64,000 nucleotides of DNA from Verrucomicrobiota bacterium. GTDB lineage: Bacteria > Verrucomicrobiota > Verrucomicrobiia > Chthoniobacterales > Terrimicrobiaceae. The translations under genes were made by a program, and so were the position numbers. The stretch covers positions 1 through 64,000 of the forward strand of contig JAPLTF010000063.1 in the NCBI GenBank assembly GCA_026398275.1, written 5' to 3'. Below the pieces are notes generated by a model. It was not told the DNA's origin and made no database searches. It saw nothing but the letters and a program-made list of their open reading frames with translations. Positions 436 through 18,602 of this stretch are shown here, piece by piece (positions within the stretch are counted from its first letter, which is position 1; every line of letters begins with the position of its first letter).

Positions 436-2901
436 TTAACCCGGTCGGGAGGGTTCGTTTTGAGCTTTTTTGTCATAGGTGGCCATCAGACTGGTGAGGA
501 TGTGAATGCCAAGGAGGATGTCGGCGGAATCCCGGGCGTCGCGGCCATGGATCATCCAGGGCTCATCGAGAATCTTGAGATACCATACCGTGATACCGGC
601 CTGGCGGTCGCATTCCATCAGGTTCAGCATGGCCTGATCGGCGTCAAGAGTGAGTTGGAGGCGGTGGATAAACTGGATCAGATGCAGCCCGAGGTGAAGG
701 AGGAGGCCGGAACATTTCGGGATGTCATCCCTTTCGTATGCAGCCTCCAATTCCTCAATCGATTCGAGTTGGCGGAGCGCTCGCGGGAAATGTTTTTTGA
801 TCCTCCGGGCGAGGCGACCGAGCGCCTTGGATGCACCGGTTCCAGAGGTTTCGCGGTCAAGGATCAGTAGTTGATAAAAAACTTCGCGCTCTCCGAGGAG
901 ATCTCCCAGAGCCAAGGAAAGCGCCTGTTTGAGCGCACGGCTTTCGGTCTCACGCATCTGGGGGATGATCCGATAAGCGGCCGACAACTCACCCAGCAGC
1001 GCAAGCGCCTCGCTGCTGACGGCCAGCAATTTGCTGTCGCGCGTTTCCTTCATGAGGTCGAGGATGCCGAGAATGGCCCGTCGTTCCCCTATGACTCCGA
1101 GCGCCCGCACACTTTCGATGACAACTTCGCGGTCTGCGGATGTCAGTTGGCCGATGAGAGCATCCACGGCGCGGGGATCGGCCGCTTGACGGAGGGCTCG
1201 ACAGATTTGCGGTGCTATCAGGGCTGCGGGGTCATAGAGGCGGGCCAGCAGCGCATCCACGGCCTGCGGCGACCCGATGGAACCGAGCGCCTCGACCGCC
1301 TCTTCCTGCAAGTCGAGCGAGGGGTCGTCCAACTTTGCCACGAGATCGGGGACAGCAAGACGTGTGCGAGTGCCACCAAGTTTGCGGGCCGCACCGGCCC
1401 GTTCCCGCCGCGTGGCTCCGGTGGTCATAAGGCTGATATTGTAAAAATTACGAACCACCTGAACCGGACTTGTCAGCAACATTTCGGAGACGGCCGCATT
1501 GAATGGCATCTCACCCTCCGGCATGCGAACGCTGAGAAGAACCGGCAGGGCCACCCCCCACGCCACCACCAAAAATATGAGAATCTGCACATGATAGAAT
1601 GAAAACTCGATCCCGCCCGGCAAATCCCAGCCGATCGGGTGGGCCGTGAACCAGTCCATCACGACGCCACCCGCCAACGGACCCAGCGCGGCGAGCAGGC
1701 CGATCAGGCACGCATGCACCGCCATCCACATGGTCCGGCCGGAGGCTTCCGACAACACGCCCAAAAGCCGGATCTGGCAGAGGCCAACGCCCGAGAAGAG
1801 CGCTCCTCCTGCAATACTCGTTAAAAAGATTACGAAGGTCACGCTGGAGACCTTGTAGCCGGCAAACTCGTAAAATCCTTCCCCGATAAAAAAATATCCC
1901 AGCATGCTGAGCGGTGCCGTCAGAAAGAGGAGGCCGGCTGAAATGCGCGAACCCACACGGTCGATCAACCGTCCGAGGAAGTAGCTAGACACCACCGAAC
2001 CGACGGCTCCCGCTACCGTGAGGGCCGCCAGTTCGGAGTAGCTCAGACCGAATTCTTTCTTGAGGTAAACGATGCCGAAGGTTCCCACCATGGCAAACCC
2101 GAAGCTCCACACGCCGACGGCCAGCGTCAACCGCCGGAAGGCCTCACTGCGCACCGGGGCCAGCAGGCGTCCCCAGATCGATGTCCCTTTCTGGACAACG
2201 GCGCGGGCGGGTTCCGGAACTCCGAGGTGGATGATGATGTCAAGCAGTCCCAAAACCGCCGCCAGCGCAAAGACGACCGCAAAACCGGCGAGGCTCGCGG
2301 ACTGTTGGCGTCCATCATAGGAATCCAGCAAAAAGCCCGCCAGCCAGAGGCCGCCCAATGAAACTGCCGTGATCACGCTCTGCCGGTTTCCCCAAAACTT
2401 CCCGCTCGATCGGCCGGGGATCAGATCGGTCATCCAACTCAGCCAGGGCGCTCCGCTCGCGTTGCCGAGCAATTCGCTCAGGGTCACGGCCAGCACGACC
2501 ACCACGGGAATCCATGGCTCGCCGGTGTGCGCAACCAACGCGAGGCCGGCTGGAATGAACCACAAGGCGCGGTGCGACAAGGCCAGGGCGGCCCAGACCC
2601 GCTTGCGCGAGCCCATGGCTTCGGCCAGCATCGCCCCCGGAATCTGCGCAGCCATGCTGGTCAACCTCACCGCGGTGATCAACCCGATGAGCACACCACT
2701 GGCACCGAGCGCCTCCATAAACATCGTTAGGGGCAGTCCGACGGAGAGCGACATCCAGAGCATCCCGAGCGACCCTGCGAAAATGCTCAGTCTCATCGAC
2801 CGGGCAACTTGCCGATGGGAAAGTGCTTCCGACGGCCCGGTGGCTGATGGTTCTTCTTTATTCACAAAGTCTGGCTGATGCGCTTTTCCTGTTTTCCTCA
2901 T
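436..2901 (-). CDS. MFS transporter with C-terminal HEAT-repeat domain
   Basis: This 821-aa protein starts with ATG at 2901. Residues about 35-460 hold around twelve hydrophobic segments with MFS features, including the loop after TM2 (EAMGSRKRVW, 94-103) and the repeated signature in the second half (GRLIDRVGSR, 310-319). Residues about 498-675 are not membrane-like. They form about five HEAT/Armadillo-type helical repeats, for example RTRLAVPDLVAKLDDPSL and EEAVEALGSIGSPQAVDALL, followed by a helical tail. Its place at the end of the xylosidase operon suggests uptake of an oligosaccharide, but the substrate is inferred from context only. A cytoplasmic repeat domain on an MFS carrier is unusual and could recruit a partner enzyme or regulator. 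Confidence 0.85.
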   Translation of the reverse strand: MRKTGKAHQPDFVNKEEPSATGPSEALSHRQVARSMRLSIFAGSLGMLWMSLSVGLPLTMFMEALGASGVLIGLITAVRLTSMAAQIPGAMLAEAMGSRKRVWAALALSHRALWFIPAGLALVAHTGEPWIPVVVVLAVTLSELLGNASGAPWLSWMTDLIPGRSSGKFWGNRQSVITAVSLGGLWLAGFLLDSYDGRQQSASLAGFAVVFALAAVLGLLDIIIHLGVPEPARAVVQKGTSIWGRLLAPVRSEAFRRLTLAVGVWSFGFAMVGTFGIVYLKKEFGLSYSELAALTVAGAVGSVVSSYFLGRLIDRVGSRISAGLLFLTAPLSMLGYFFIGEGFYEFAGYKVSSVTFVIFLTSIAGGALFSGVGLCQIRLLGVLSEASGRTMWMAVHACLIGLLAALGPLAGGVVMDWFTAHPIGWDLPGGIEFSFYHVQILIFLVVAWGVALPVLLSVRMPEGEMPFNAAVSEMLLTSPVQVVRNFYNISLMTTGATRRERAGAARKLGGTRTRLAVPDLVAKLDDPSLDLQEEAVEALGSIGSPQAVDALLARLYDPAALIAPQICRALRQAADPRAVDALIGQLTSADREVVIESVRALGVIGERRAILGILDLMKETRDSKLLAVSSEALALLGELSAAYRIIPQMRETESRALKQALSLALGDLLGEREVFYQLLILDRETSGTGASKALGRLARRIKKHFPRALRQLESIEELEAAYERDDIPKCSGLLLHLGLHLIQFIHRLQLTLDADQAMLNLMECDRQAGITVWYLKILDEPWMIHGRDARDSADILLGIHILTSLMATYDKKAQNEPSRPG

Positions 2902-4219: not shown

Positions 4220-5113
4220 CTAATCATGTTCGTCTCGTTCCTTATCCGCCCGTTGCCAATGTCCCTGCACCATGGTGTAAGCCGGATGACGATACCAATC
4301 CGGATGCTCGAGCCGGTGCCGGGTATCCCGAACGACCAGAGCGGCACAATGGTTGATTGCCAGCAGGCCTTGTTCGGGAGTTGCATCCTGTGGTGCGTGC
4401 TGGCCACCAACGCCGACCAGCGGTTCGCCTTTGGCAGGCAGCGTCGAGAGGTCAACAGTTTGCGGATAAAGCGCCATGAGGTTCGATGTTTCCCATCCGC
4501 CTCCATGATCCCCGACATTCCAATTTTCCTCCAGTTGCCCCCGGAGTGTGGGCTCACTGAAAGCCCAAGGCAGCAAATTGCCGGAAGAGCCTGCAGGCCG
4601 GGCCGGATTGAGGAATCGCGTCTGGGCAAATTGGTGCACCGCCGCCAGCGCATGGCCGATCAGCGGGTAATGCCCCGCTATCAACACGCCGACTTTGAAC
4701 TCGAGGATTTCTGCGAATTCGAGGATGTTAAACAGCGCCCGTTGGTAACGTTCATTGGCGGCCCGCACCTGTTCCTCCCGGTCGGCCAAGACAAAGTTTT
4801 CCACCGGCAAAGCCATTTCACGGGCGATGCCGGCCCTGTCGTTCTCGATCCATCCGGTCGTTTCGTGCAGCGGCGAAAAATACCAGAGCGGCGGCAAAAC
4901 GAGTCCCCCGCCTTCCTGCGCCGCCCGGATGGCGATTCCCTCGGCCTGCAGCGTATCCGCCCCCAGCGGGTTGTGCGGGCCATGCCATTCCAGATTCCCC
5001 AGCGGGATATAGGCAACCGGAGTGGCTTCGCGCCGTTGAACGATTTGCGCGGGGCGCAACATCTGGTAGCGAACCTCGGGTTCGGCCAGCGAAAAGGCGG
5101 GTTTTGTGCTCAT
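4220..5113 (-). CDS. Creatininase-family amidohydrolase
   Basis: I place the start at ATG 5113, which overlaps the upstream stop as ATGA and gives 297 aa; a longer frame would need a TTG start at 5128. Residues 39-54 (GNLEWHGPHNPLGADT) carry the family metal ligands E42, H44 and D53 with the same spacing as E34/H36/D45 of creatininase. Later motifs are GHYPLIG (H148) and GDHGGGWETS (202-210). In creatininase the motif after H120 supplies another metal-binding Glu (HYE); here it is HYP, so one ligand differs. Family members hydrolyse cyclic or linear amides such as creatinine or formamidopyrimidines. The coupling to GH120 and GH3 suggests a sugar-linked amide or lactone substrate, which is inference. 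Confidence 0.85.
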   Translation of the reverse strand: MSTKPAFSLAEPEVRYQMLRPAQIVQRREATPVAYIPLGNLEWHGPHNPLGADTLQAEGIAIRAAQEGGGLVLPPLWYFSPLHETTGWIENDRAGIAREMALPVENFVLADREEQVRAANERYQRALFNILEFAEILEFKVGVLIAGHYPLIGHALAAVHQFAQTRFLNPARPAGSSGNLLPWAFSEPTLRGQLEENWNVGDHGGGWETSNLMALYPQTVDLSTLPAKGEPLVGVGGQHAPQDATPEQGLLAINHCAALVVRDTRHRLEHPDWYRHPAYTMVQGHWQRADKERDEHD

Positions 5114-6852
5114 GCGGGAAGAGGCCAAATCCGAAGGGAAATTTCTCCGAGGGTCGTCTGCTCCGCGAACGGGCCGGGCGCGACTCGCGATGACCCGCGG
5201 GGCCGCCCGAAATAATCGGTATCGAAGCGCACGGGTTGGCCGTCCGCCGATTCAAACGGAAGGCCGGGGATGGCAGCGCGTCCGAGCCTTTCCGTAGTGA
5301 TCAGGTCGAGGGAACCGGATGCGCCTGCGTCGTAGTGGAAGTGCAGATGGCGACCCTCTTTTCCGTCACTCAACCCGGGAGTTCCTTTGAGCGAAACGTT
5401 GCCTTCGAGCAAAACCGGCAACGGGGCTTCGCGGTAGCTTTCAAGATCCTCGAGGTCGAAGAGGATATTGTTGATAAAGCGGTCGTCGCCGAATGGGAGG
5501 CCATTCATTCCGCCGAGTTCAGTGGAGTGGGGGCGGAGCCAGGGAGTCAGGCGACCTTCTTTCGGGGAATGGAACGCCCAGATTCTCCCCGCAAACAGGT
5601 TATGCACGTAGGCGCCGCCTTGGGAGCGGTCAATAAGGTTCAATTTCGAGAGAAAAATATTGTGATCCACGACGAAGGGCCCGTGGTTCACTTCAAGGCT
5701 CAGATCTTCACGATTTTCGTGAAGGAGATTGCAGGTGACGCGCGTGCCCTGGGTCATCCAATCGAGCCAGATGCCGGTGTGGGCGCGGAAGATCTGGTTC
5801 CGGGCAATGAGGACATCGACGGCACCGTGAAATTTGATTCCGCCCTGCTCGGCTCCGTCAAAATTCTTCTGCTGGTGGATGTCGTGAATCAGGTTGTCGG
5901 TGACCTCACTGAAGATCGCGCCCAGGCTGCCGACAATGCCGGCCTGCTCGCAGTGGTGGATGTGATTTTTTCGGACGATGTGATGGCCAACATTCTCTTT
6001 TTTCCAGTCCGCCGCCCATGCGCGCTGGATGGTTTCGATGTAACCCTCCGCCGTGTCGGCCGCTTTGTTGTCAAATTCGTCGCCGTATTTTCCCAAGGCA
6101 ATCCCAGTGCATCGGGAGTGTGAGACCTCGTTGTTCTCGATGATCCAACCCTTGCTCCAGTTCGTGCCGATCAGTCCGATTTGCTCGGCAGTCGGCGGCG
6201 CCCAGGGAGTCGCCGCCTGGCTCATCACAAAGCCGCGCACGGTGAGGAAATCGATCCCGGGCTTATCGGGATAAAAAACCGTCCGGCGTGCGTTGACCTC
6301 CACCAGCGCCTCATTCGGATTCACCCCGGGGCACCTCACCCAGATCGTCGTCACGCCATCCTGAACCTCCGCATGCCAGAGATTCTGCGAGCACGGATGA
6401 TAAACCATAGCGGCGGCCCAACTGGTGGATTGGGGTAACTCCACGCCGTTGATGTAAACCGCCCCGCTGTGATGGACGCCACCCTTTGCAAAAAACCAAT
6501 CGCCGCAAAGAGGATCGGCGAACGGATTGAAACCGTGAAAAAACGCGTCCGGGACAGAGGCGGACCAGACATCGCGTCCGGCTTTTGTCCAACCCGTGAC
6601 AATTTCTGAGCCCTTGATTTCCACGCGCTCGCCGGGTGCCGCCTGATAAACGATCCGGCGGGCGTCGGACTCTCCACCACATGGTGGATTGACGCGCTCG
6701 CGATAGACGCCCGCGTGGACGGTGATCGTGTCCCCTGGTTGGGCAACGCGGGCGGCGGCCATGATGGTTAAAAACGGTTTCTCGGACGTGCCGGCATTGG
6801 AGTCGTCACCCTTGAGTGCGCAGACGTGAAATTCAGAGGGTGGCTTGGGCAT
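5110..6852 (-). CDS. GH120 beta-xylosidase
   Basis: This 580-aa right-handed beta-helix protein starts with ATG at 6852. The N-terminus (HVCALKGDDSNAGT, then DTITVHAGVYRERV) and the block ATPWAPPTAEQIGLIGTNWS (213-232) match what I recall of the GH120 beta-xylosidase XylC of Thermoanaerobacterium saccharolyticum. In that enzyme the nucleophile is D382 and the acid/base E405. The equivalents here are D364 in GIWLDWMTQG and E387 in LSLEVNHGP, with exactly the same 23-residue spacing. There is no signal peptide, so it should act in the cytoplasm on imported xylo-oligosaccharides. It lies 9 bp after the GH3 gene and overlaps the creatininase gene by 4 bp. GH120 is a small family, which makes this assignment useful. 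Confidence 0.92.
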   Translation of the reverse strand: MPKPPSEFHVCALKGDDSNAGTSEKPFLTIMAAARVAQPGDTITVHAGVYRERVNPPCGGESDARRIVYQAAPGERVEIKGSEIVTGWTKAGRDVWSASVPDAFFHGFNPFADPLCGDWFFAKGGVHHSGAVYINGVELPQSTSWAAAMVYHPCSQNLWHAEVQDGVTTIWVRCPGVNPNEALVEVNARRTVFYPDKPGIDFLTVRGFVMSQAATPWAPPTAEQIGLIGTNWSKGWIIENNEVSHSRCTGIALGKYGDEFDNKAADTAEGYIETIQRAWAADWKKENVGHHIVRKNHIHHCEQAGIVGSLGAIFSEVTDNLIHDIHQQKNFDGAEQGGIKFHGAVDVLIARNQIFRAHTGIWLDWMTQGTRVTCNLLHENREDLSLEVNHGPFVVDHNIFLSKLNLIDRSQGGAYVHNLFAGRIWAFHSPKEGRLTPWLRPHSTELGGMNGLPFGDDRFINNILFDLEDLESYREAPLPVLLEGNVSLKGTPGLSDGKEGRHLHFHYDAGASGSLDLITTERLGRAAIPGLPFESADGQPVRFDTDYFGRPRGSSRVAPGPFAEQTTLGEISLRIWPLPA

Positions 6853-6861
6853 GGTGGGGTT

Positions 6862-9195
6862 TTACGGAGAAGGCTGGCACACGAGCTCCAGCAGATCGAT
6901 ATGAGTCGAAGCGGTATCCCCGCTGTTCGGTCCGGTGAAGAGCGTGAAGGTGCCGGGATCGGTGCGTTCGGTGCCTGAGGCGTCGTGGTAGGCAAACGCG
7001 CGCGGGGCAATCGTGATGCAGGCGGTGACGGTTTCGCCCGGTGAAGCTTCGACCCGGGCCCAGCCGGCGAGGCGGATGCGGGGAAGCGCGACGGCGGCGA
7101 ATTCGTCGCGCAGATAACACTGCACGACCGTGCTGCCGGGGCGTGCGCCGGTGTTGGTGACCTTCACTTCCACGGTGACCGTCTCGCCGATGGATGCGGA
7201 TTCCGGTGCGGTCGGTGTGGCGTAGGCCCACTCGGTGTAGCCAAGGCCGAAGCCAAACGGGAACGCGATCTTCGTGTCGCGGAATGCGTATTCGCGGGCG
7301 AGGCCGAGGGGACGCTGGTTGTAATGAACCGGAAGGCTGCCCGTGGTGAGCGGGAGCGTGAAGGCGAGGCGTCCGCGCGGTTCGCAAAGGCCGAGCAGGA
7401 CGCGGGCGAGTGCGCTTCCGCGGGCCTCGCCGCATTCCCAGAGATCCACGATGGCATCGGCGAGCGGCACGACTTCGCCGAGCGCGAGGGCGCGGCCGTG
7501 GCAGAGCACGACCACCACGGGGGTGCCGGTCGCGACGACGGCGCGGAGCAACTCGAGTTGGTTGCCGACCAGACCGACATCATCGCGGTCGCCCCGGCGG
7601 GCGGGGCTGTAGTTTTCTCCCGCGCAATGTTTGCTATCGCCGAGGCAGAGGATGGCGACATCGGCGTTGCGGGCTGCCTCGACCGCCTCCGCGATCCCGG
7701 CGGCTTCGGCCTCGAGCGGCAGGACTTGGGCGCGTTCGTCGGCGAAGAGTGCAGCGGTGGACGGATCGACATCCATGCGCTGCAAGGTGGTGAGTCCTTG
7801 GTTCGCTGTCTCTGCCAGGTAGGTCGGGGCGACGTCGTCTTTGGTCGTGAGCCGGCATCCGGGCACGACGGCCAGTGCGACCTCTGCGGGCAGTGCGGCA
7901 CGCAGGCCTTCGGCGATGGTGACCCGCGCGGGCCGGTCGTCGCCGAGTTGTTTCAGCGCCGCATGGGGCCCGAGCAAGGCCACGCGCTTGAGCTTGGACG
8001 GATCGAGCGGGAGGAGGTGCTTCTCGTTTTTCAGCAGGATCACCGAGGCCAGTGCGGCTTCTTCGGCCAAGGCGTGATGGGCGGGAGCGCCGGTTGTGGC
8101 TGCGGCCCGGTCCGCATCGGGATACGGATTTTCAAAGAGCCCGAGCTGGAATTTCAATTCGAGCACTTTCAGCACGGCGGCATCCACGCGTGCGCGGATT
8201 TCCGGATCGTCCATGAGCGGGATGAGGTGCGGGAAATTGTTTAGCTCGGGCAGGTCCATATCCACGCCGGCTTCGAGGGCGAGGCGGGCGGCCGCGGTGG
8301 GGCATTCGGCAATCGCATGCGGGTCGTGAAGATTATTTATCCCGCCGTAGTCGGCGGTGACCAATCCCTGGAACCCCCACTTCTCGCGCAGGACCTCGTG
8401 CAGCAGCCAGCGGTTGGCATGGCAGGGTGTGCCGTCGATTTCCGGGTAGGCGGGCATGACGGCTGCGACCCCGGCCTCGACGGCATCGCGGAACGGCGGG
8501 AGGATTTCGTTGAGCAGGGCGGTGCGTCCGAAGTTGACCGTGCCCATCTGGCGTCCGCCGTCGCTCTGCGCAAAGCCGGCAAAATGTTTCACCGTGGCGG
8601 CGATGTGTCCGGGCTGCGGGCCGTCGGGGCCGCCTTGCAGTCCGCGCACGGCGGCGGCGACCATGGCTCCGGCGAGCATCGGATCTTCGCTGAAACTTTC
8701 GCACGAACGCCCCCAGCGCGGGTCGCGCGCCAGATCGGCCACCGGCGTGTGGGCCAGCGAACCACCGCGGGACTGACACTCGACTCCGACAGCGCCGTAG
8801 CAGCGCTCGACCAGATCCGGATCCCATGTCGAGCCCATCGAGGGAGGTTCCGGCATGGCGGTGGCGCCGATGGCGACATGGCCCCACGCGCACTCCTCGC
8901 AGAAGAGCGCCGGGATGCCCATGCGTGTGTTTTCGACGAAGTGACGCTGGATCAAGTTCACCCAAGCAACCCCTGTGGCCGGCGGATGCCCCATGTTCAC
9001 ATAGCTGATCGTGCCGAGGCCGTTGGCAAAGGCCGCTTTCATGGCGTTGTCCAACTCCGGATCCGCGCCGCTGCGCAGCGCATACGGCATGATCCAACCG
9101 CCGAGTTGGGCGATTTTTTCTTCGGGTGTCAGGTGGGTGAGAAGGTCTGCCGCCCGGTCACGGTGCGCGAGGGTTTTGTTTTGATGGGGTTTCAT
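6862..9195 (-). CDS. GH3 glycoside hydrolase (beta-xylosidase or beta-glucosidase type)
   Basis: This 777-aa protein has the usual three-part GH3 layout: a TIM barrel (about 10-360), an alpha/beta sandwich (about 380-590) and a C-terminal fibronectin III-like domain (about 640-765, beginning PFGFGLGYTEWAYATP). The substrate-binding motif KHF is at 203-205. The expected nucleophile is D282 in GLVTADYGGI. DPRWGR at 158-163 is another family hallmark. No signal peptide is present, so it should work inside the cell. It is immediately followed by the GH120 gene, which points to xylo-oligosaccharides as substrate; GH3 members also cleave glucosides, arabinosides and N-acetylhexosaminides. Start is ATG at 9195. 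Confidence 0.93.
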   Translation of the reverse strand: MKPHQNKTLAHRDRAADLLTHLTPEEKIAQLGGWIMPYALRSGADPELDNAMKAAFANGLGTISYVNMGHPPATGVAWVNLIQRHFVENTRMGIPALFCEECAWGHVAIGATAMPEPPSMGSTWDPDLVERCYGAVGVECQSRGGSLAHTPVADLARDPRWGRSCESFSEDPMLAGAMVAAAVRGLQGGPDGPQPGHIAATVKHFAGFAQSDGGRQMGTVNFGRTALLNEILPPFRDAVEAGVAAVMPAYPEIDGTPCHANRWLLHEVLREKWGFQGLVTADYGGINNLHDPHAIAECPTAAARLALEAGVDMDLPELNNFPHLIPLMDDPEIRARVDAAVLKVLELKFQLGLFENPYPDADRAAATTGAPAHHALAEEAALASVILLKNEKHLLPLDPSKLKRVALLGPHAALKQLGDDRPARVTIAEGLRAALPAEVALAVVPGCRLTTKDDVAPTYLAETANQGLTTLQRMDVDPSTAALFADERAQVLPLEAEAAGIAEAVEAARNADVAILCLGDSKHCAGENYSPARRGDRDDVGLVGNQLELLRAVVATGTPVVVVLCHGRALALGEVVPLADAIVDLWECGEARGSALARVLLGLCEPRGRLAFTLPLTTGSLPVHYNQRPLGLAREYAFRDTKIAFPFGFGLGYTEWAYATPTAPESASIGETVTVEVKVTNTGARPGSTVVQCYLRDEFAAVALPRIRLAGWARVEASPGETVTACITIAPRAFAYHDASGTERTDPGTFTLFTGPNSGDTASTHIDLLELVCQPSP

Positions 9196-9207: not shown

Positions 9208-10626
9208 TCATTCGATTTTGGTGATGATGGAAAAACCTCCGAGAAGGTGGCCGTTTTCCAGACGCACGAGGATGCGGTTGATGCCGCGGTTGAGGCGGAT
9301 TTTCCGGAGTCCCTCACCCGGGTTCCAGCCCTTGAGGATGTCGCTGCTTTTCCACACGAGTTGGTCATTCACCCAGACCTTCGACTGGTCGTCGCTGCCG
9401 ATGGCGATCCAGCGGTCGCAGTCCGTTTCGGAGCGAAGTTCGGTAAATGCGTAGTAGATTTGGTATTCGCCCAGCCCAGGCGGCACGATCATCTCCCCTC
9501 CCGATTGGTGGAAACGCCATCCCAGTTTTCTGCCGGATTCATTCTGGTAGATGGCGTCGAGGTTGATGATGGATTCCGGGGGGAACTTGGTGTCGATGTT
9601 CCGGCGATTTTCATTCGGCCAGGGGCCGATGAGATACCAGCTGTCGAGGAACATCCAGGTTCCGTCCTTGCCTTTCTCGATGAAGGCCGGGCCGGATGCC
9701 AACGTGCGTCCGGGCACGGACTGGAATTGGCGTGGAGGAGACGGGGGTTGGCCGCCGGGCGAACTCGTCGCGCCGGGGGGTGCTTCTTGCGGGGTGCCCG
9801 CCGGGGTTCCGTCCTTTCCTCCCTTTGCCATTAAGCTGGTGAGGTCGCGCGCGGGAGTGCCCTCGCTGGCCATGGCTGCATTTTCCATTTCGCGGGCGTG
9901 GTCGCCCAGGGACGCGAGCGATTCGGCGGTGACGCTCACGCCTCCTTCGTCCGGGCGGACCTGACTGAGGATATTGTTGGCTTGGGCCAGCATGCCTGCC
10001 ACTTCCTTGCGGGCGGCAAGAATCTGCTCCTCCTGTTTTTGCAGACCGGCGGCATCGGCGGTGTCGCCGGTGAGGGCCGCACTGTCGAGTTCGGGCCGCA
10101 CGGGTCGGGTCGTCTCGGTGAGCTTGCGGGCCTCCTCAATCGGGAGGTTCTGGATCGCAGCCAGCTCCGCGGCGCGGGCATCCTGGTAGGAAGCGGCCAG
10201 GGCATTTTCGATGCGGCGCGCCATGTCGTAGAGTTCCGGGATCGATTTGGCGGAGCCGATTTCGGATTTGCCGGGGTCGGTCGCAGAGATGGACTGCGCG
10301 GTGCCGGCGGAAGAGCCGTTTTTCTGGTTGAGTTCGTTCAGGCGTTCGAAGGCCTCCTTTTGAAATTCGCCCATTTCCTCCCTGAGGCGTTGGAGTTCGT
10401 TCACCTTGGCGCGCAGGGATTCGCTTTCCCGCGCACGGATGTCTTCCGCCACCTGACGCATTTTTTCCGGGCTGGCGGCCGACGGGGCCGGGGAATTGGA
10501 GGAGGGGAGGAGCGCGGTCGGAGAGGGAAGGAAAAAGAGCAGGGCGGCAAAGAGGCTCAGGTGGACCAGCAGCGAAATGATCCACCAGGGCCCCATTCCC
10601 TGCTCGGACTGGAGGCGCGTGTTCAA
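9208..10626 (-). CDS. TonB-position membrane protein with coiled coil and C-terminal beta-sandwich
   Basis: The frame opens with TTG at 10626, overlapping the exbD stop as TTGA; ATG at 10596 (MGPWWIISLL) is an alternative. It encodes up to 472 aa. One N-terminal membrane segment (about 13-33) is followed by a Pro/Ser-rich linker, a charged coiled coil (about 55-105) and helical low-complexity sequence to about 300. Residues about 310-472 form an all-beta, galactose-binding-like domain (LDSWYLIGPWPNENRRN, IGSDDQSKVWVNDQLVW). ExbB-ExbD-TonB order predicts an energy transducer, but the usual TonB C-terminal domain is not recognisable and a probable carbohydrate-binding sandwich takes its place. 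It could instead be a TolA-like or signalling subunit. The GH3 gene follows after 12 bp. Confidence 0.7.
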   Translation of the reverse strand: MNTRLQSEQGMGPWWIISLLVHLSLFAALLFFLPSPTALLPSSNSPAPSAASPEKMRQVAEDIRARESESLRAKVNELQRLREEMGEFQKEAFERLNELNQKNGSSAGTAQSISATDPGKSEIGSAKSIPELYDMARRIENALAASYQDARAAELAAIQNLPIEEARKLTETTRPVRPELDSAALTGDTADAAGLQKQEEQILAARKEVAGMLAQANNILSQVRPDEGGVSVTAESLASLGDHAREMENAAMASEGTPARDLTSLMAKGGKDGTPAGTPQEAPPGATSSPGGQPPSPPRQFQSVPGRTLASGPAFIEKGKDGTWMFLDSWYLIGPWPNENRRNIDTKFPPESIINLDAIYQNESGRKLGWRFHQSGGEMIVPPGLGEYQIYYAFTELRSETDCDRWIAIGSDDQSKVWVNDQLVWKSSDILKGWNPGEGLRKIRLNRGINRILVRLENGHLLGGFSIITKIE

Positions 10627-11045
10627 CGGGGCGGGTTGTCTGAGCGGGTGCGGAGGCCGATGTCGCGCAGGTTGTTGAACTGGCAGAGCTCGACCAATTC
10701 GATGACATCTTCATACCGCGTGTTGCGGTCGGCATCGATCCGCACGCGCGGCTTCACGCTTTGTTGGCCCGCCTTGTCCAGGGTGCGGATCATCTCCTCC
10801 TTGGAAATGGCCGTGCTGCCGAGGTATTTGTTCCCGCGTTCATCAACACCCAGGATGAGCAAATTATCCTCCGCATTGGTGGAGACGGCGGCGGTGGAGA
10901 CGGGCAGTTCGATGGGCAGTTCCTTGTCCATGTGTTTCAAGGTCGTGGCGACCATGAAAAAGATGAGCAGGATCAGCATGCAGTCGATCATCGGGACCAG
11001 GTTGATCTCGAACGACTCATCGTCATTGCGGCGACGCGCTCTCAC
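10623..11045 (-). CDS. exbD: ExbD/TolR-family biopolymer transport protein
   Basis: I choose the GTG at 11045, which overlaps the exbB stop as GTGA and gives 140 aa, close to normal ExbD length; an upstream GTG at 11075 would add 10 residues. The protein has a short basic N-terminus, one membrane helix (about 15-34: NLVPMIDCMLILLIFFMVAT) carrying the conserved pore aspartate D21, and a periplasmic domain ending with RVRIDADRNTRYEDVIELVE. ExbD is the proton-motive stator partner of ExbB. The order exbB-exbD-transducer with 4-bp overlaps argues for a coupled operon feeding the next gene, the beta-sandwich protein. Confidence 0.93.
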   Translation of the reverse strand: MRARRRNDDESFEINLVPMIDCMLILLIFFMVATTLKHMDKELPIELPVSTAAVSTNAEDNLLILGVDERGNKYLGSTAISKEEMIRTLDKAGQQSVKPRVRIDADRNTRYEDVIELVELCQFNNLRDIGLRTRSDNPPR

Positions 11046-11800
11046 CGGGAGGCGTCCTTGGATTTCATGAACCACTCGACGATCAGCACGGAGATCTGCT
11101 CCTCGAGCAGGAGGGCATAGCCGTTCGTCTTATTTTTAAAATAGTGGTAGAGCACGAGGAACGGGATGGCCAGGCCGATGCCGAGGGCGGTGGTGGTGAG
11201 AGCCTCGGAGATGCCCGAGGCCAGCTGTGCCGGGTTGCCGAGCGCGCCCGCGAGGGCCACGGTCTCAAAGCTCTCGATCATGCCCATGACCATGCCGAAG
11301 AGCCCGAGGAGCGGCTGGATGGTGGCCACCACGCCGAGCGGATAGGCGCGCTGCAGGCTGGCATCCATCTCGCGGGCGATCAGGTCGTTCACCGTGACGG
11401 AAAGATCGGCGACCGGATGGTTGCGGTATTGGGCCAGAAGAGAGACCGCCCGGGTGAAGGTGCTCGGCTGGGATTGGGCCAGGGCTTCGATCTCGGCGAA
11501 TTTCCCCTCGCGCCAGAGGTCCTGAACCTTGGTGAACAGGCCCCTGGGCGAGATGTTTTTGCGGCGGAGGCGGAGGAAGCGCTCGACGGCGAACGCCCCG
11601 CCGAAGATCGAGACAAGGACCTGGACGATCCCCGTTTCGCCGGAGGCGCGGAAGCGTTCCATCAGCACCTGCCCGCCGGAACGATGCGGGGCAGCGGCTG
11701 TTGTTGCGGGTGCTGCTGTCGGCGATGGAGAGGGAGTTTGAGCAGGCGCGGAAAGGGTCAAAAACAACGACAAGGGGAGAAGTAAAACGTAGAGATTCAT
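11042..11800 (-). CDS. exbB: ExbB/TolQ/MotA-family proton channel protein
   Basis: This 252-aa protein starts with ATG at 11800. A cleavable signal-like stretch (1-21) precedes a Pro/Ala/Thr linker, as in many verrucomicrobial and planctomycetal ExbB proteins. Three membrane helices follow: about 58-75, about 150-178 (LGVVATIQPLLGLFGMVMGM) and about 192-218 (EALTTTALGIGLAIPFLVLY). The second and third carry the small-residue and Thr-rich faces typical of the channel. It should form the pentameric channel around ExbD. The gene begins 36 bp after the SGNH/CBM9-like gene upstream, on the same strand, so the energised complex may be expressed with the exported carbohydrate proteins. Confidence 0.93.
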   Translation of the reverse strand: MNLYVLLLPLSLFLTLSAPAQTPSPSPTAAPATTAAAPHRSGGQVLMERFRASGETGIVQVLVSIFGGAFAVERFLRLRRKNISPRGLFTKVQDLWREGKFAEIEALAQSQPSTFTRAVSLLAQYRNHPVADLSVTVNDLIAREMDASLQRAYPLGVVATIQPLLGLFGMVMGMIESFETVALAGALGNPAQLASGISEALTTTALGIGLAIPFLVLYHYFKNKTNGYALLLEEQISVLIVEWFMKSKDASR

Positions 11801-11836: not shown

Positions 11837-13975
11837 CTAAGGCTGCGGTTTTGGATCCGCTTCTATGATGAGCGTGCCGAACTGGTCGGGCTGGGTGAAG
11901 TTGTCGGCGGTGCCCTGCCAGACGACTTCGCTTTCCACGCCGGTCCCGCTGTCATCGTCTTTGATGCCGATGTCGAAGCCCATGACGCCCGGAAGATTCG
12001 AGGCATCGAAGGCGAGTGCCCAGTAGTTGAGCCAGAACTCGGCGGTGTAGCCATCCTCGGTCAGGGTGATTTTGCCCTGATGTCCGAAGCCGCTGGGGGC
12101 TACGAGGACGGCGTTATACCATTCTTTAGTCGGCGCAATCCCGACCACGCGGTCATCGAAGTTGTAGACCTTCTCGCGGTTGTTGAGGACATCGAGATAG
12201 ACGAACAATGAGTCACCTTCGGCAATCTTATCGAGTTTCACATGGCGGTCGGGGTCGATCACCTTGATGGCGACAAACATGTTCCCGCCATTACGAACGA
12301 TGTCAAAGAAAGCTTGGACGTTCGTGGTTTCGCCCATGACCTTTTTGGTGATCGGTTCCTTCAAGTCCCAGAACGGTTCGTCGAGCACGCCGTCCACCGT
12401 CGGATCGGCGCTGCCTGCAGGCAGGGCTCGGACGCGGAAGACGCCGGGGCCGGGCGGTGTGACTTTGAGAGTGAAGGTTTGCGTGGCCGATTCCGGGGTC
12501 TTGGCATCGGCATCGGCCACTTTGAGTTCGAACGAGAATTCGCCTTCCTTTCCCGGAGAACCATACAGCGTGCCATCGGGGTGGAGCATAAGCCCGGGTG
12601 GCAGACCGCCTTCACGCGGGACCGGTTCCCATTGCATCGCGCCGTTGCCGCCTTCGGAGGTCAGTTTCAAGGTGAAATTTTCACCCAGCCGTCGGTCGGG
12701 CAGGGCGGCTGTAGCGGTGATCGCGGGGGTGGTGTCAGGTTCGACATTGATCGTCAACTCGCGGGTGGCCGTGCCACCTGCCGCATCCTTGACGGCAAAG
12801 GTCACCTTGTAATCGGCGGGGTTGCCCGAGGCCGTTCCGGCGAGCACGCCACTGGGTTCGAGCGTGAGACCTTCGGGCAGATTGCCCGAGGCCACACTCC
12901 ATGCATACGGAGTCTTGCCGAAGGCGGGCAGCAATGTGGTCCGATACGGTTCGCCCTGCACGCTGTGCGGCAGGGATGCGGTGGCCACTTTCACTTTTTC
13001 ATCGGTGGTGACGCCAGTGAGCGGATGGGTGGACACAACTTCCCAGACCGTCTCCTGGATGACCTTGGCCAGCTCGTCGGAGATGGGCGTGCGCCTTTCG
13101 TTGCTCTTGGGATCCGCCTGATACTCGCCGATCGGCAATCCGACCGGACTGGTCTTGAAAATCGTGGAGTAAAACGTGCAAGCGGTGATGTAGGAGCCGA
13201 CGTTGTCGAGGTGGACCCCGTCGCCATACATCTGATACGGCGTCGTGTAGCCGGGAACCAATCCTGCGCGCATTTTGCTGTCGAGCAATTCGATCACATG
13301 GCCGACCGGGATTAGCTTGACCGGATTTTTCATCGGCACGCGCCCGCGCAGTCCCTGCACGATGAGTTCATATTCGCTCTTGAGCGAGCGCTCGAGTTTG
13401 ACCGGCTCGCCAGCCGCCTGGCCTGCGGCGGCCACGTTTTCCAGCCACGAAGACTCGGCCACTTCCTTCTTGTAGCCGCTGCGCCAATCGCCGGCCGCCA
13501 AGTCTCCCATCCCGACGTAATCCGCCTGCTTGGTGAAGTCCGCCGTCCAGTCCCCCGTGCGCCGCCCGTGCCACTGGGCAAAGATATAGAGCTGGGTGTC
13601 CGGCTGCTTTTCCTGGAGAAACTTCGCGAAGTTTTCGCTCGCTTCGTATTCCAGCTCAAACTGCGCGAACGGTTGCAGCGTCACCACATCCCATTTTTCG
13701 TCGGTCAGTTTCTGCTCCCAGTTGGGTTTGGCTTTCCACCAGTGATTGACCGGAACGCCCGGAGCCATTTCCCGTTTCCACTCCAGCGGATGCCCGGCAT
13801 TGTCCGACAGATTTTTGAAGAAGCCATAAAGGAGCGTGTCGGTGAGGCTGTTGCCAAAGTAGTGAATGCGCTTGGGTGCGGGCTGGGCCGGCGGTTCGGC
13901 GTGGACAATCACCGGCATCATTGACATAGCGAGGGAGACTGTGGTGGAGAGCAGGGCGGGCAAGAGTCTTTTCAT
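11837..13975 (-). CDS. Secreted SGNH-type hydrolase with Ig-like and CBM9-like domains
   Basis: This 712-aa protein starts with ATG at 13975 and has a signal peptide ending near residue 26 (VIVHAEPP). Residues 36-300 resemble SGNH esterases: GNSLTD places a candidate nucleophile at S43, and YGDGVHLDNVGS gives D252 and H255. Two putative-Ig (He_PIG-like) repeats follow (about 335-520), each with the 'LP.GL.L...G.L.G.' signature. Residues about 525-705 look like a CBM9-like domain (DPTVDGVLDEPFWDLKEPI). It is probably exported to deacylate or bind a glycan. The catalytic part is paralogous to the stand-alone SGNH gene at 35201. No SD sequence is visible before the start. Confidence 0.75.
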   Translation of the reverse strand: MKRLLPALLSTTVSLAMSMMPVIVHAEPPAQPAPKRIHYFGNSLTDTLLYGFFKNLSDNAGHPLEWKREMAPGVPVNHWWKAKPNWEQKLTDEKWDVVTLQPFAQFELEYEASENFAKFLQEKQPDTQLYIFAQWHGRRTGDWTADFTKQADYVGMGDLAAGDWRSGYKKEVAESSWLENVAAAGQAAGEPVKLERSLKSEYELIVQGLRGRVPMKNPVKLIPVGHVIELLDSKMRAGLVPGYTTPYQMYGDGVHLDNVGSYITACTFYSTIFKTSPVGLPIGEYQADPKSNERRTPISDELAKVIQETVWEVVSTHPLTGVTTDEKVKVATASLPHSVQGEPYRTTLLPAFGKTPYAWSVASGNLPEGLTLEPSGVLAGTASGNPADYKVTFAVKDAAGGTATRELTINVEPDTTPAITATAALPDRRLGENFTLKLTSEGGNGAMQWEPVPREGGLPPGLMLHPDGTLYGSPGKEGEFSFELKVADADAKTPESATQTFTLKVTPPGPGVFRVRALPAGSADPTVDGVLDEPFWDLKEPITKKVMGETTNVQAFFDIVRNGGNMFVAIKVIDPDRHVKLDKIAEGDSLFVYLDVLNNREKVYNFDDRVVGIAPTKEWYNAVLVAPSGFGHQGKITLTEDGYTAEFWLNYWALAFDASNLPGVMGFDIGIKDDDSGTGVESEVVWQGTADNFTQPDQFGTLIIEADPKPQP

Positions 13976-14002: not shown

Positions 14003-17000
14003 TTATGCCCTTGTGGTGAGCTTCACCGGTCCCATCACTCCAGAGGGCAATTGATCGGAGGAGAGAAATGCCGTCGGGCTCCAGGCCTGCATCCACGGTG
14101 CGAGCGTGTTGGTTACGAGAAGCTCGATCGTGTTTTCGCCGGGGCGGAGGGGCAAATCGAAGGTCCATGGCGCGGCGAAGCGCATGCCCGCAGATTGCCC
14201 ATTGCACCAGACTTCGACGGTGCCACGCACACTTCCGAGATCGAGGTTCGCTTCGTGCGCTTCGTCCGAAGAAATCGTCTGCCGCATCCGAATGGCTCCA
14301 GAGTAATTGCCGAGCCCTTGCGTGTGCCAGGAACCGGCCAAGAGTGTGCCGCTTCCAAAGTTGTAAGAGATCGGGCCAGTAAAAACGCCGCCGTCGAGTT
14401 GGGTGGAGCGGACTTCCATGCGCGCCGCGCGGGCCGGTGCGGGCGATTCTCCAAGTGAGACGGAACCATCGCGTGGGATGACTTTTTTGTCCTCGATGAA
14501 GAGTTCGGCTTCGGCTCCCTCGCAAAGCGGAATCGTCATCGTCCGGGCTCCTGGCGGAATCGTCCATTCGAAATTCTGAATGCACTGCGCGAGCCCGGTG
14601 GAGAGGGTAGGGGAACACACGATCTCCGCCTGCGGCCCCTCCAGCCATGCGGTGCCCGGCAGCGGATGCGGGCGGCGCCAGAGGCAGACATACGAGGGAT
14701 CAAGATGGGGATTGCTGCGCACGGCCACTGGCGTGAACGACGCGTCGTCACGGGCGACCTCCCAAAGGGCATCGGACATCAACGTGAATCGGTTGCCGTC
14801 ATCCAGTTCACCGAGCAGGTCGGCAAAGAGGCCGCCGGGCTGACCGGGGTCGGTGACTTCCACGATGATCTCATGAGTGCCGGGTGCGGTCGCTGGCAAA
14901 TCATAAGGCTGCACGCGGAGATCCATGGCATAAGGGTCAAAGCCGCCCTGACGTCCGAGCAATTTGCCATCAAAATAGACGCGGCCCACGCCGAGGACGG
15001 CAACCTGCAGACGCGCCTGGGTGAGTGCTGACGCCAAATGGAAAATCTTCCGGAAGCGCAGCCGGGATCCTTTGCTCGGGGCATCCGCAGCGGCAATGCG
15101 CTCGAGGCGGAGGAATTCCTTTTCGGTGCCGGGCCGCAGCAACGACCAATGGAATCGCAGCCATTCCGAACGTCGGGCCGTCAGCACGAATTCCAGACGG
15201 TTCCGCCCCGCCTTCAACCGCAGCGGCTGGAGCCAGAGGCGGGCTTCGGATGCTTCGCGGAATTCCTCATCGTGCACGCGCAGTGATTTTTGGGCGGCGG
15301 AACCCGCCGCGAGCACGAACTCTGCCTCCGCATCCAGATCAACAAACGCGCATAAGCGAACCGACTGCCCGGCCTCCACCTCCCACAGATCCACAAATTC
15401 TTCGGGCACATGTCCCTTGGGGCCGAGCGTCCAATGGTGAATTCTATCCTTAAAAATCCCCCGCTCGGGTGAGTAAACGACGGGCTCCCAGCCCGGCGCG
15501 GGAAATGCCTCGGGCACCGGCGGAAGTTTCTCGGGCGCGCAAGCCTTGGTCTTCCAGCCATAAACGCCAAACCCGGCCCAAACGGTCCGTCCTTCGCTTC
15601 CGAGCGCCCAAGTGCGCGGAAGCTCCACGCCGGGATCGGCAGCGTCACCCATGTCAAAGAAGGCGTTCTTCAACGTCGGGACATAATCCATGGTCCAACG
15701 ATCGGACAACGCGATGGCATCAGCATGCAGTTTGGGCATGGCCGGAGTTCCTTCGGCATCGTCCCAAGCGAGCACCACGTAAGCGCAGCCCTCGAAATCC
15801 ACGCGGGCCGCGCCATCCGCATCGACCTCGACCGTGCGGCGCGTGCCGGTCACGGGATCCCAGCGCACGAGGCTTCCGGGATGCTTGGCAAAGCGCACGG
15901 TCGTATCCTTCGCATACCGCGTCGGATCCAAGCGGCAGGATTCGTATTCGAACCAGGCACCACCTTGCAGACGTTTGACATCCGTCCCCATCGTCATGCA
16001 GGCCGGGATGAACAAGATGTGCCCGGCCTCGGTGCGGCGGTGCAATCCCGGCAGATCGAGCGAGATCGCGCGGGGCATCGACTCCATCCTCACCCGCAAT
16101 GCGGCCGCATCACGGCACAGCTCGATGCAATCCCGCAGCTTCGCCAGCAAGTCCGCGTCGCCGTCCAGAATCCGCGCGGGCAGTTCATGAAGCGCAAGGA
16201 TCGTCCCGCCCGCCCTGGCAAACTCCAGCAAACGACGCGCCCCACCGGCCTCGAGGATTTCGATCGCCGGAAGAATCACCGTGGAAAACCGGCAGCCGCG
16301 CAGTGCCAATCGTCCACCCTCGACGCCCGCGCCGGCCAGGCTTTCGTCATCGAGAAAATGATAATCCAAGCCGACCTCGTCCAGCACCCCGGGCATGGCA
16401 TCCATCCAACACATGCATCCCGCGATTTCGTTCGTCGCGGCATTGAGCGGACGGGCGTCCCCATCAACCCACACCTTGGCCTCGGGGGGCGCCGCCCAGC
16501 GACCGAGTTCGCCCTCGGCCCCCATCGCCGCCTGCGCGGTGAGTGTGGGGAAGAGCACCGCGACCTCCGCCTCATGCACGCCCTGGGCCAGCACCTTGCA
16601 GAGCCTGCTCACGGTGTCCGCAAACGGTTTGTAATGCAGCGCATACGGTTGACGCCAGCACATCGACGGCGGAGCCCATTCCCAGAATCCGCCGCGCGTG
16701 GAGTAGTAAGCCGCGTGCGGATTGTAAAAATTCGCCCCTGCCCGCAACCACGGCAGCAGCCAGTCAAAAGTCTCCTCGATCGTGCCTCCCCATCCGGTGG
16801 AATGAAAACCCTCCATCCAGCAACGGGGACGCCCATAAAGCCAGGCCAGCGAACTGTGAATTTTCGCGTGCCCGTGCAGGTCGGCACCCGGCGCGCCATA
16901 CCAGCGATGCGTTGCCATGTAGTCCGCGTAAATTTGCACGCAGGCGGCAGGTTTTCCCTGCCGCGCCGGCCCCTGCTGGTCGAACCCGCAGATCAGCCCG

Positions 17001-17878
17001 TGCTTCTCATGCCAGTCGAAGAACGGACGGAACATCGCCTCCTCCGCCAGCCGGGAACGATGACGGTGATAGAACAATCGCAACCGCGACTCCTCCTCGC
17101 CTCCCGCCTCATAAAGCGCGTCCAGATGGTCGAGGAGATCGACACCAAACTCCGCCCGAAAGCTCTCCGCAAAAGTCGCGCTCCAGCTCGGGAGATGCGG
17201 CAACTCGTCCTGAAACGAGCCGACGATCACGTCGCCAAAATACTTTCCCGCCCGCCGAAAAAACTCGCCATGCACCGTATCGAGCAGACGCACGCAGGCC
17301 GCCTTGGAGAAATAATCAAAGCCCTGCCCGACCGCATAAACCAGCCGCAGGCGTGTTGTTTTTTCGGCCAGAAACTCCGCGATGCCGTCCCTGACTTCGA
17401 CGCGCTGCGCCGCGCCGCCCCCAACGATGGCGTAGGCTCCCAGCGCCCGCGCATCCCCGGGACACACCACCCGCAGCCGCCCCGTGCCTTCAGCCAACAC
17501 GCTCCCAAGGCGCTCGCCGGAAAATTCCGGATGCTCACTCACCAGTTGAGCCTGGAAATTCGCCCCGGAGAATCCAATCTGATCGTAAAAATAGACTCGC
17601 AAACCGATGCGGCGCGCATACTCGCAAACCGCCAAAAAAATCTCCCACCACGCCTCGGAGAGAAATGCCGGATCATCCGCATCCGAGCCGAAGAGCGGCC
17701 CGGTGGGCGCAAGGTTCATGATCACCACCTGCCAGATTCCCATCTCACGGAATTGATCCATCTGCCAGCGCAGTCGGTCCATTTCGAGTCGCTCCCCGCT
17801 CCACCACCAAATCGGAGCGGGCGAAAACGCAGGATCGGGCTTCGCAAAGTCGTCAAGCAAATCAGGCATTGAAGGCAT
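14003..17878 (-). CDS. Large GH106-like glycoside hydrolase (putative alpha-L-rhamnosidase)
   Basis: The product is about 1291 aa from ATG 17878 (MPSMPDLLDDF); in-frame starts at 17899 and further upstream at 18019 are possible, but the extra N-terminus is Arg/Ser-rich and unlikely to be coding. The N-terminal PIWWWSGERLEMDRL, then VYFYDQIGFSGANFQAQLV and HPEFSGERL, resemble the beginning of GH106 and related giant barrel hydrolases. The C-terminal 150 residues form a jelly-roll ending GVMGPVKL, as in GH106 and GH2-type proteins. No signal peptide is evident. GH106 enzymes remove L-rhamnose from pectic and arabinogalactan chains, and a GH78 enzyme elsewhere in the window fits rhamnose use. 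The exact family is uncertain and the catalytic Glu residues were not placed. Confidence 0.6.
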   Translation of the reverse strand: MPSMPDLLDDFAKPDPAFSPAPIWWWSGERLEMDRLRWQMDQFREMGIWQVVIMNLAPTGPLFGSDADDPAFLSEAWWEIFLAVCEYARRIGLRVYFYDQIGFSGANFQAQLVSEHPEFSGERLGSVLAEGTGRLRVVCPGDARALGAYAIVGGGAAQRVEVRDGIAEFLAEKTTRLRLVYAVGQGFDYFSKAACVRLLDTVHGEFFRRAGKYFGDVIVGSFQDELPHLPSWSATFAESFRAEFGVDLLDHLDALYEAGGEEESRLRLFYHRHRSRLAEEAMFRPFFDWHEKHGLICGFDQQGPARQGKPAACVQIYADYMATHRWYGAPGADLHGHAKIHSSLAWLYGRPRCWMEGFHSTGWGGTIEETFDWLLPWLRAGANFYNPHAAYYSTRGGFWEWAPPSMCWRQPYALHYKPFADTVSRLCKVLAQGVHEAEVAVLFPTLTAQAAMGAEGELGRWAAPPEAKVWVDGDARPLNAATNEIAGCMCWMDAMPGVLDEVGLDYHFLDDESLAGAGVEGGRLALRGCRFSTVILPAIEILEAGGARRLLEFARAGGTILALHELPARILDGDADLLAKLRDCIELCRDAAALRVRMESMPRAISLDLPGLHRRTEAGHILFIPACMTMGTDVKRLQGGAWFEYESCRLDPTRYAKDTTVRFAKHPGSLVRWDPVTGTRRTVEVDADGAARVDFEGCAYVVLAWDDAEGTPAMPKLHADAIALSDRWTMDYVPTLKNAFFDMGDAADPGVELPRTWALGSEGRTVWAGFGVYGWKTKACAPEKLPPVPEAFPAPGWEPVVYSPERGIFKDRIHHWTLGPKGHVPEEFVDLWEVEAGQSVRLCAFVDLDAEAEFVLAAGSAAQKSLRVHDEEFREASEARLWLQPLRLKAGRNRLEFVLTARRSEWLRFHWSLLRPGTEKEFLRLERIAAADAPSKGSRLRFRKIFHLASALTQARLQVAVLGVGRVYFDGKLLGRQGGFDPYAMDLRVQPYDLPATAPGTHEIIVEVTDPGQPGGLFADLLGELDDGNRFTLMSDALWEVARDDASFTPVAVRSNPHLDPSYVCLWRRPHPLPGTAWLEGPQAEIVCSPTLSTGLAQCIQNFEWTIPPGARTMTIPLCEGAEAELFIEDKKVIPRDGSVSLGESPAPARAARMEVRSTQLDGGVFTGPISYNFGSGTLLAGSWHTQGLGNYSGAIRMRQTISSDEAHEANLDLGSVRGTVEVWCNGQSAGMRFAAPWTFDLPLRPGENTIELLVTNTLAPWMQAWSPTAFLSSDQLPSGVMGPVKLTTRA

Positions 17879-18033
17879 AGCAGGGATAAATATCCCCATG
17901 CCGCATCGCGAGCCAAGGCGGCACAATATCAAGCGCTTTACGAATATGGGCCGATCTGGCGTGCGCGCGCTGGAATGCGCCTTGGAGCTGCGAGCGGTGT
18001 CGGGCCACTGGACCTCCAATTGCTGAGGGCATG

Positions 18034-18061: not shown

Positions 18062-18149
18062 CTTAATCGCTTCCCAGCCTCCAACGTATTTACATAAGCC
18101 TCCTCCTGTGATTGCTCTCCCCAAAGACCCAAGACGATTGCCGGCCTGT

Positions 18150-18602
18150 ATGATGGATGTCGGGGAACAAAAATGCGCTTTCTGCCGCAGCAACGTTCGC
18201 GCAGGCTTTACCTTGGTGGAGGTGGCCATGGCGCTCGGGATTTTTGCTTTTGCGATCATTCCTGTCATCGGACTGATGGGAACCGGACTGAAGGCCAGCA
18301 AGGAATCGATCAATGCTTCGACCACAGCCCAGATTTTTCGAATTGCCGATGCATTGGTTGCCAGCGATGCCTCGGTCACAACGACCAACATGTTTTTTTC
18401 CAATGAGGGAGAGCAAACGGATTCTTCGGATGCAGTTTTCAAGGCTGTGGTTTCCCCTCTGAGTCCGAACGATGCTGCCGGGGGGCTTTTGGTCCGGAAG
18501 ATGTGGCAGGTGCAGATCGTGAACCCGGCGGCCACGAATGTCATCTACAGCACGCGATCCATCCAAGTTTCACGGGACCTCAGCACAAATGACTTCCGGT
18601 GA
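18150..18602 (+). CDS. Verru_Chthon cassette protein B (GspI-like pseudopilin)
   Basis: The protein is 150 aa from ATG 18150; a GTG at 18108 would add 14 residues. A basic leader ends in Gly, followed by FTLVEVAMALGIFAFAIIPV with Glu at mature position 5, the classic type IV pilin/pseudopilin N-terminus cut and methylated by prepilin peptidase. The sequence pattern (FTLVEV.MALGIF) is closest to GspI/PilV minor pseudopilins. The globular part is short and ends with STRSIQVSRDLS. It is the first of four overlapping genes (B-C-D-A) that match the Verru_Chthon cassette known from Chthoniobacter and Verrucomicrobium. The function of that cassette is not established. Confidence 0.85.
   Translation: MMDVGEQKCAFCRSNVRAGFTLVEVAMALGIFAFAIIPVIGLMGTGLKASKESINASTTAQIFRIADALVASDASVTTTNMFFSNEGEQTDSSDAVFKAVVSPLSPNDAAGGLLVRKMWQVQIVNPAATNVIYSTRSIQVSRDLSTNDFR

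Follow-up and report, generated by a model that had tools for sequence, protein, structure and literature searches.

For a long time, to our knowledge, Ton and Tol stood alone as envelope systems with a 5:2 proton motor that pulls on something at the outer membrane. Transducers in which such a motor drives a hand unrelated to TonB and TolA have been proposed in the form of the vWA force transducers (Williams-Jones et al. 2025, PMC12204202), which are the closest precedent for the unit analysed here, and glycan uptake by Caulobacter MalA and NagA is ExbBD-dependent (reviewed in PMC11658791). A transducer of the PA14/galactose-binding type is not described in PMC12204202 or in the literature searched, which covered few subscription papers or preprints, and the unit would seem to represent a kind of proton-driven envelope machine that has not been described before. 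It was found in a stretch of 64,000 nucleotides from a Verrucomicrobiota bacterium (contig JAPLTF010000063.1), referred to as the window, in which an ExbB-ExbD pair is followed by a third gene. The product of this gene is read here as a PMF-driven periplasmic transducer akin to TonB and TolA, whose lectin-like output domain would bind glycan and which probably serves glycan use (estimated probability about 0.6).

Gene unit and architecture of the third protein

The unit consists of three genes:
11042..11800, minus strand: exbB, ExbB/TolQ-like proton-channel protein of 252 amino acids (PF01618, 79.2 bits, E = 2.9e-22)
10623..11045, minus strand: exbD, ExbD/TolR-like protein, GTG start (PF02472, 104 bits, E = 7.8e-30)
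9208..10626, minus strand: third gene, TonB/TolA-like transducer with beta-sandwich end, 472 amino acids, TTG start

Window ExbB and ExbD both exceeded the curated cut-offs (22.9 bits for PF01618 and 25.4 bits for PF02472), and the transmembrane aspartate of ExbD was located by sequence reading within LVPMIDCMLILLIFF (MIDCMLILL). The start of exbD is very likely GTG 11045 rather than the longest-ORF start at 11075; given this start, GTGA at 11045-11042 forms a 4-bp overlap of exbB with exbD, and TTGA at 10626-10623 forms a 4-bp overlap of exbD with the third gene, in agreement with the first-pass annotation, which had placed such an overlap at both junctions. For the third gene, a profile search of the protein gave no Pfam or NCBIfam match of weight. 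The parts of the protein were delimited as follows:
10534..10587, minus strand: N-terminal transmembrane helix, residues 14-31 (hydropathy and helix in model)
10561..10575, minus strand: S18-x3-H22 motor-binding motif, with L29 at x6 (sequence reading)
10315..10470, minus strand: long helix/coiled-coil stalk, residues 53-104 (full-length model, low confidence)
9868..10242, minus strand: conserved helical region, residues 129-253, SIPELYDMARRIE...YQDARAAELAAIQ
9667..9867, minus strand: Pro/Gly-rich linker, probably disordered, residues 254-320 (model and composition)
9211..9666, minus strand: C-terminal beta-sandwich, PA14/galactose-binding-like, residues 321-472 (model, Foldseek, VIA)
9388..9393, minus strand: Asp-Asp pair D412-D413 (SDDQSKVW), candidate Ca2+/sugar site (alignment A3)

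The single hydrophobic N-terminal helix (...GPWWIISLLVHLSLFAALLFFLPS) carries an S-x3-H-x6-L pattern of the SHLS type (S18, H22 and L29, the final Ser of the motif being Leu here); motif definition and contacts with ExbB were taken from PMC12215075. A TonB layout with one N-terminal helix, a linker and a long coiled coil had been proposed for the protein. The single helix, with its S-x3-H-x6-L, and the linker were found, but the coiled coil was not continuous: the low-confidence full-length model (pLDDT 40, too poor for domain placement) showed a long helix at residues 53-104, followed by several of lesser length at 129-253.

The unit is flanked by the following genes:
6862..9195, minus strand: GH3 beta-xylosidase/glucosidase-type gene, 12 bp 3' of the third gene (PF00933, PF01915)
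5110..6852, minus strand: right-handed beta-helix protein with GH120 insertion domain (PF21258, E = 1.6e-20)
11837..13975, minus strand: secreted DUF4886-like/Ig/CBM9 protein, just upstream of exbB (PF06452, E = 1.2e-12)
14003..18019, minus strand: rhamnosidase-like protein with C-terminal jelly roll, upstream of the unit (NF049897 and NF045579, below cut-off)

The xylosidase genes previously noted downstream of the unit correspond to the GH3 gene and, after it, the GH120-type gene; GH120 is a beta-xylosidase family. The window unit is also adjoined by a Verru_Chthon prepilin cassette (proteins A-D, TIGR02600/02598/02599/02596), of which A (938 bits) and D (124 bits) scored over the cut-off and C (245 vs 256.5) and B (31 vs 51.4) below it. 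Related prepilin genes adjoin five other units. A fixed link between unit and cassette is not supported, such cassettes being many-copied in these genomes and without match in two unit-bearing genomes (G300 and G304).

Fold and candidate site of the C-terminal domain

The model of the C-terminal domain (CTD), built with three sequences, was all-beta, with a mean pLDDT of 57 (core about 75) and a pTM of 0.60; from model residue 90 on, pLDDT was mostly 57-83. The best Foldseek match was yeast beta-glucosidase (E = 4e-5), in a part which we take to be its PA14 insert, and other glycosidase and CBM domains were matched as well. In VIA-align, CBM6 and the GH2 N type of sugar-binding domain were matched at Z 8-9, a range in which values near 8 can reflect a common arrangement. 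Pfam PA14 (PF07691) was matched weakly in 14 of 42 members, with a best E of 0.0079 and under the gathering score, the window member reaching 14 bits (cut-off 24). Searching solved structures by sequence returned chance-level matches only. No VWA domain was matched in the third protein, and the CTD model was without Rossmann folds. A glycosidase function of the CTD was rejected, as no catalytic domain was matched in the profile search. We conclude from the model that the CTD is probably a jelly-roll beta-sandwich of the PA14/galactose-binding sort, with the exact family unsettled; the galactose-binding-type sandwich of the first-pass annotation is thereby supported, at moderate model quality, by the all-beta model, Foldseek and VIA.

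A TonB_C domain (PF03544/PF13103) was not matched in the third protein by profile search. When a profile of 42 sandwich domains was compared by hhalign with TonB C-terminal domains from related genomes, the probability was 0.2%, vs 64-96% for TonB-vs-TonB controls; by this comparison the sandwich is not a TonB domain. The window genome (98.7% complete) contains ten ExbD genes and TonB_C-like domains at two places. A check for a receptor partner in this 98.7%-complete genome yielded no Plug domain and no TonB_dep_Rec domain (PF00593, E 0.1), and because none was detected the unit does not work here as a TonB for classical receptors. The other CTD-bearing genomes encode 1-15 TonB-dependent receptors each, so the system is not a receptor replacement everywhere; a receptor gene adjoins one unit only (L123). 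An ordinary TonB for TonB-dependent receptors, to which a sandwich has been added, would fit the ExbB-ExbD adjacency and the SxxxH helix, but for this genome the explanation is contradicted by the 0.2% TonB_C probability and the absence of receptors from the window genome, and the single receptor neighbour likewise stands against it.

The Asp-Asp pair was invariant in all 28 ExbBD-linked members of alignment A3, and its position was occupied by Lys-Asn in 13 of the 14 secreted relatives without ExbBD. In PA14 lectins, two consecutive Asp bind Ca2+ and, through Ca2+, vicinal sugar hydroxyls (PMC8092209); D412-D413 is thereby marked as a candidate ligand site. As a separate observation, the window's own PA14 protein (31071-35162) has a similar DDGARL motif.

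Recurrence, genomic context and probable motor contact

A sandwich-only profile was searched against about 1,060 genomes of two phyla (384 of the class and 387 of the phylum, partly the same genomes, and 294 of the second phylum, Planctomycetota). Scores were bimodal, with an ExbBD-linked family at about 95-290 bits and secreted proteins at 60-86 bits; the two lower-group loci examined (L141 and L142) adjoin PQQ-type genes and have no ExbBD. At 56 of the 63 upper-group loci (40/47 in the first read-out and 16/16 in a later one), ExbB and either one or two ExbD are encoded in the same orientation and within a few kilobases. Among the remaining seven, L119, L155 and L167 are truncated at contig ends, L014 (genome G007) is the only frameshifted member and has no ExbBD next door, and L138-L140, all from one genus, are truly without ExbBD. 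With 56 of 63 loci, though there are about ten ExbD genes per genome, the ExbB-ExbD-sandwich order is far beyond chance. The three-gene order recurs in two phyla, and an absence of the fusion from relatives, which would have spoken against the first-pass annotation, is contradicted by these 56 loci with ExbB and ExbD. A frameshift or annotation artefact fusing an unrelated enzyme domain is likewise out, as the intact fusion recurs in many genomes. The unit is a widespread family in two phyla, not a peculiarity of the window genome. A scan of viral contigs found no relatives. Two contig pieces of one assembly (L084 and L004) likely form one operon.

Neighbours of 21 units included five LacI-type regulators, GH2, GH5, GH43 and GH59 domains, 3-keto-disaccharide hydrolases and L-arabinose isomerase, whereas TPR proteins, porins, TonB_C proteins and housekeeping genes were found around 23 other ExbBD loci of four genomes; this contrast is qualitative, drawn among the top families listed per set and between sets from different genomes. 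Two-component propeller sensors adjoin some members (L121 and L139), and in L121 the stalk of the third protein contains a laminin-G/concanavalin-type domain. The LacI-type regulators at 5 of 21 loci and the propeller sensors would be expected of a mechanical or ligand sensor, in which the motor-coupled stalk reports glycan occupancy and nothing is transported; this is improbable, as no signalling domain was present in any member examined and the regulators differ between loci and are ordinary companions of glycan genes. A Tol-Pal-like envelope stabiliser is a very remote alternative. Its sandwich would hold on to peptidoglycan or to a lipoprotein of the outer membrane, and pulling would constrict the envelope, which suits the TolA-like helical stalk and S-x3-H and the ability of PA14-like folds to bind glycans, peptidoglycan possibly included; the distribution, however, is patchy (strong sandwich matches in 19 of 384 class genomes, with up to four copies per genome) and the neighbours are catabolic genes.

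In eight split units (L118, L126, L130, L157 and L160-L163) ExbD precedes a stalk protein that carries S-x3-H, and the sandwich comes next as a protein of its own, in most cases with a visible signal peptide. Reading the split proteins in full placed the helical region of residues 129-253 with the sandwich and not with the stalk. Because the same pair exists fused and split, the two halves can be suggested to act together in the periplasm. A split sandwich must dock onto the stalk, which makes protein-protein contacts likely somewhere and is in keeping with the main rival reading, a protein partner at the outer membrane. The motor-driven transducer would be the same, and the sandwich would grip either an outer-membrane protein (porin-like, or another that is not a TBDR) or an envelope assembly, with the pull opening or moving what is gripped. 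Proteins are what TonB and TolA grip, protein binding is frequent among galactose-binding-like folds, and the Foldseek and VIA matches speak to the fold only. Neighbour clustering, however, found no conserved outer-membrane partner near the units; besides ExbB, ExbD and the third gene there were no shared families other than LacI, ABC and prepilin genes at scattered loci. We regard a protein partner as possible, but tentatively so.

An S-x3-H motif was present in the membrane helix of 17/17 one-ExbD units vs 2/20 two-ExbD units (Fisher 1.2e-8). A repeat in the second phylum gave 6/7 clean one-ExbD units vs 0/7 two-ExbD units, the seventh one-ExbD unit having the His with a different Ser spacing; L197 and L201, whose spacing suggests an undetected second ExbD, were left out of this count. 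A Ser in TM1 of ExbB accompanied the helix motif (19/19 units with the motif vs 2/18 without) and is present in window ExbB. It corresponds, by position reading rather than alignment, to E. coli ExbB Ser34, which contacts TonB Ser16/His20 (PMC12215075). In the sandwich tree most two-ExbD units formed one main clade, with L166 outside it. The two classes are also told apart by several further ExbB columns, and part of the Ser/His co-variation is therefore due to shared ancestry. L121 is nested in the two-ExbD clade yet has both the helix His and the ExbB Ser, a pattern that argues for direct contact between helix and ExbB. Taken as sequence co-variation, this is good though not conclusive evidence for a TonB-like docking of one-ExbD transducers on ExbB. 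Since most two-ExbD units are without the His, their coupling must differ, and the split into one- and two-ExbD units with loss of the motor-contact His is a natural experiment on the coupling of transducer and motor.

Proposed mechanism and comparison with known systems

These results give good support to a motor operon, to a stalk in the periplasm that is held by a TonB-like helix, and to a beta-sandwich hand other than a TonB domain. In the preferred reading, a PMF-driven transducer with a lectin-like hand, ExbB and ExbD would form the motor, the third protein would be anchored beside ExbB through S18/H22 of its N-terminal helix, as the motif and the co-variation suggest, and helices and linker would extend into the periplasm. 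The PA14/galactose-binding-like sandwich, its fold predicted from a model of moderate quality, would be the hand. This hand would most likely grip a carbohydrate that enters the periplasm or lines it, or else an envelope component bearing glycan, with a gripping surface that may lie around D412-D413. Proton flow would pull or release the gripped target in the service of the neighbouring xylan/hemicellulose-type utilisation genes, and force would be transmitted, by analogy, as in Ton and Tol. We infer that the thing gripped is a carbohydrate and that the purpose is uptake or handling of xylan-type glycans. It is rather unlikely that the lectin-like hand captures polysaccharide at the outer membrane or below it and draws it inward with no TonB-dependent receptor involved, as a second, non-TonB energised uptake route. 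A lectin-tipped class that is conserved across two phyla and linked to polysaccharide genes would widen the range of motor targets, and it suggests a testable way in which polysaccharide degraders lacking TonB-dependent receptors, the window bacterium included, could move glycans.

The vWA force transducers (PMC12204202) have in common with the present units a transmembrane helix with SHLS motif, a linker and a globular CTD without TonB/TolA homology, as well as adjacent tolQ/tolR-like motor genes and occurrence in the PVC group. Their CTD is a von Willebrand A domain and they follow a TPR gene and two paired tolR genes, whereas the present units have a PA14/galactose-binding-like CTD, often one ExbD, and glycan-gene neighbours. 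With TonB (PF03544) and ExbB-ExbD the units share the motor proteins, the S-x3-H-x6-L transmembrane helix and the linker, but the present CTD is unrelated to that of TonB and the window genome is without a TonB-dependent receptor. The transmembrane motif and the helical domain II are common to TolA of Tol-Pal, from which the third protein differs in giving no TolA family match, in having no TolB-Pal among the neighbour families listed and in its patchy distribution. Caulobacter MalA and NagA likewise draw on ExbBD energy for oligosaccharide uptake, but use TonB and TonB-dependent receptors (PMC11658791). The PA14 lectins (e.g. MpPA14, PMC8092209) resemble the CTD in the beta-sandwich model, in an S-D-D motif followed by a W-x-N strand and in the Asp-Asp pair; unlike these lectins, the present CTD scores below the Pfam cut-off, is extended in its N-terminal part with WYxIGP and PPE motifs, and is fused to a motor-coupled periplasmic stalk.

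Receptors and neighbouring genes in the window's genome

Ten ExbD genes were counted across the whole genome of the window (98.7% complete), and no TonB-dependent receptor was detected in it by either the Plug or the TonB_dep_Rec domain. Two further features of the window were recorded:

18108-24832, plus strand: Verru_Chthon cassette encoding the prepilin-like proteins B, C, D and A
436-2901, minus strand: MFS transporter fused to HEAT repeats, 821-aa protein

The cassette is divergent from the ExbB-ExbD operon and starts approximately 6 kb from exbB; a related prepilin gene was found near five units besides that of the window. In the 821-aa protein, the transporter (residues 40-339) and the HEAT repeats (approximately 496-600) form an unusual fusion.

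Sandwich proteins without ExbBD

At three loci of one genus (L138, L139, L140) the sandwich protein retained its N-terminal membrane helix and ExbBD was absent alongside. In L139 a propeller-type histidine kinase gene adjoins the sandwich gene; L140 and L121 also contain genes related to this kinase gene. A second sandwich family (L008-L011, L106-L116, L141, L142) comprises secreted proteins of about 370-450 aa in which the Asp-Asp pair is replaced by Lys-Asn; PQQ/BamB-like genes adjoin several members.

Altered copies and gene order

The third-gene homologue of genome G007 (L014, 4359-6070) was split over two frames with no ExbBD adjoining; either the gene is decaying or the assembly is at fault. 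Genome G823 gave 11 matches in the sandwich profile search, including 8 partial matches located in short frames; these represent fragments, decayed copies or misassembly. Other arrangements were as follows:

L164, 5791-9771: tandem pair of sandwich genes after a single ExbBD set
L179, 2551-4362: tandem pair of sandwich genes after a single ExbBD set
L063, 3576-5450: large gene at the ExbB position
L071, 2951-4909: large gene at the ExbB position
L076, 5579-7534: large gene at the ExbB position

The large genes encode a long, secreted N-terminal part (WWNKEWAARKPITVDT...) and are followed by ExbD; they recall DUF2341-ExbB fusions.
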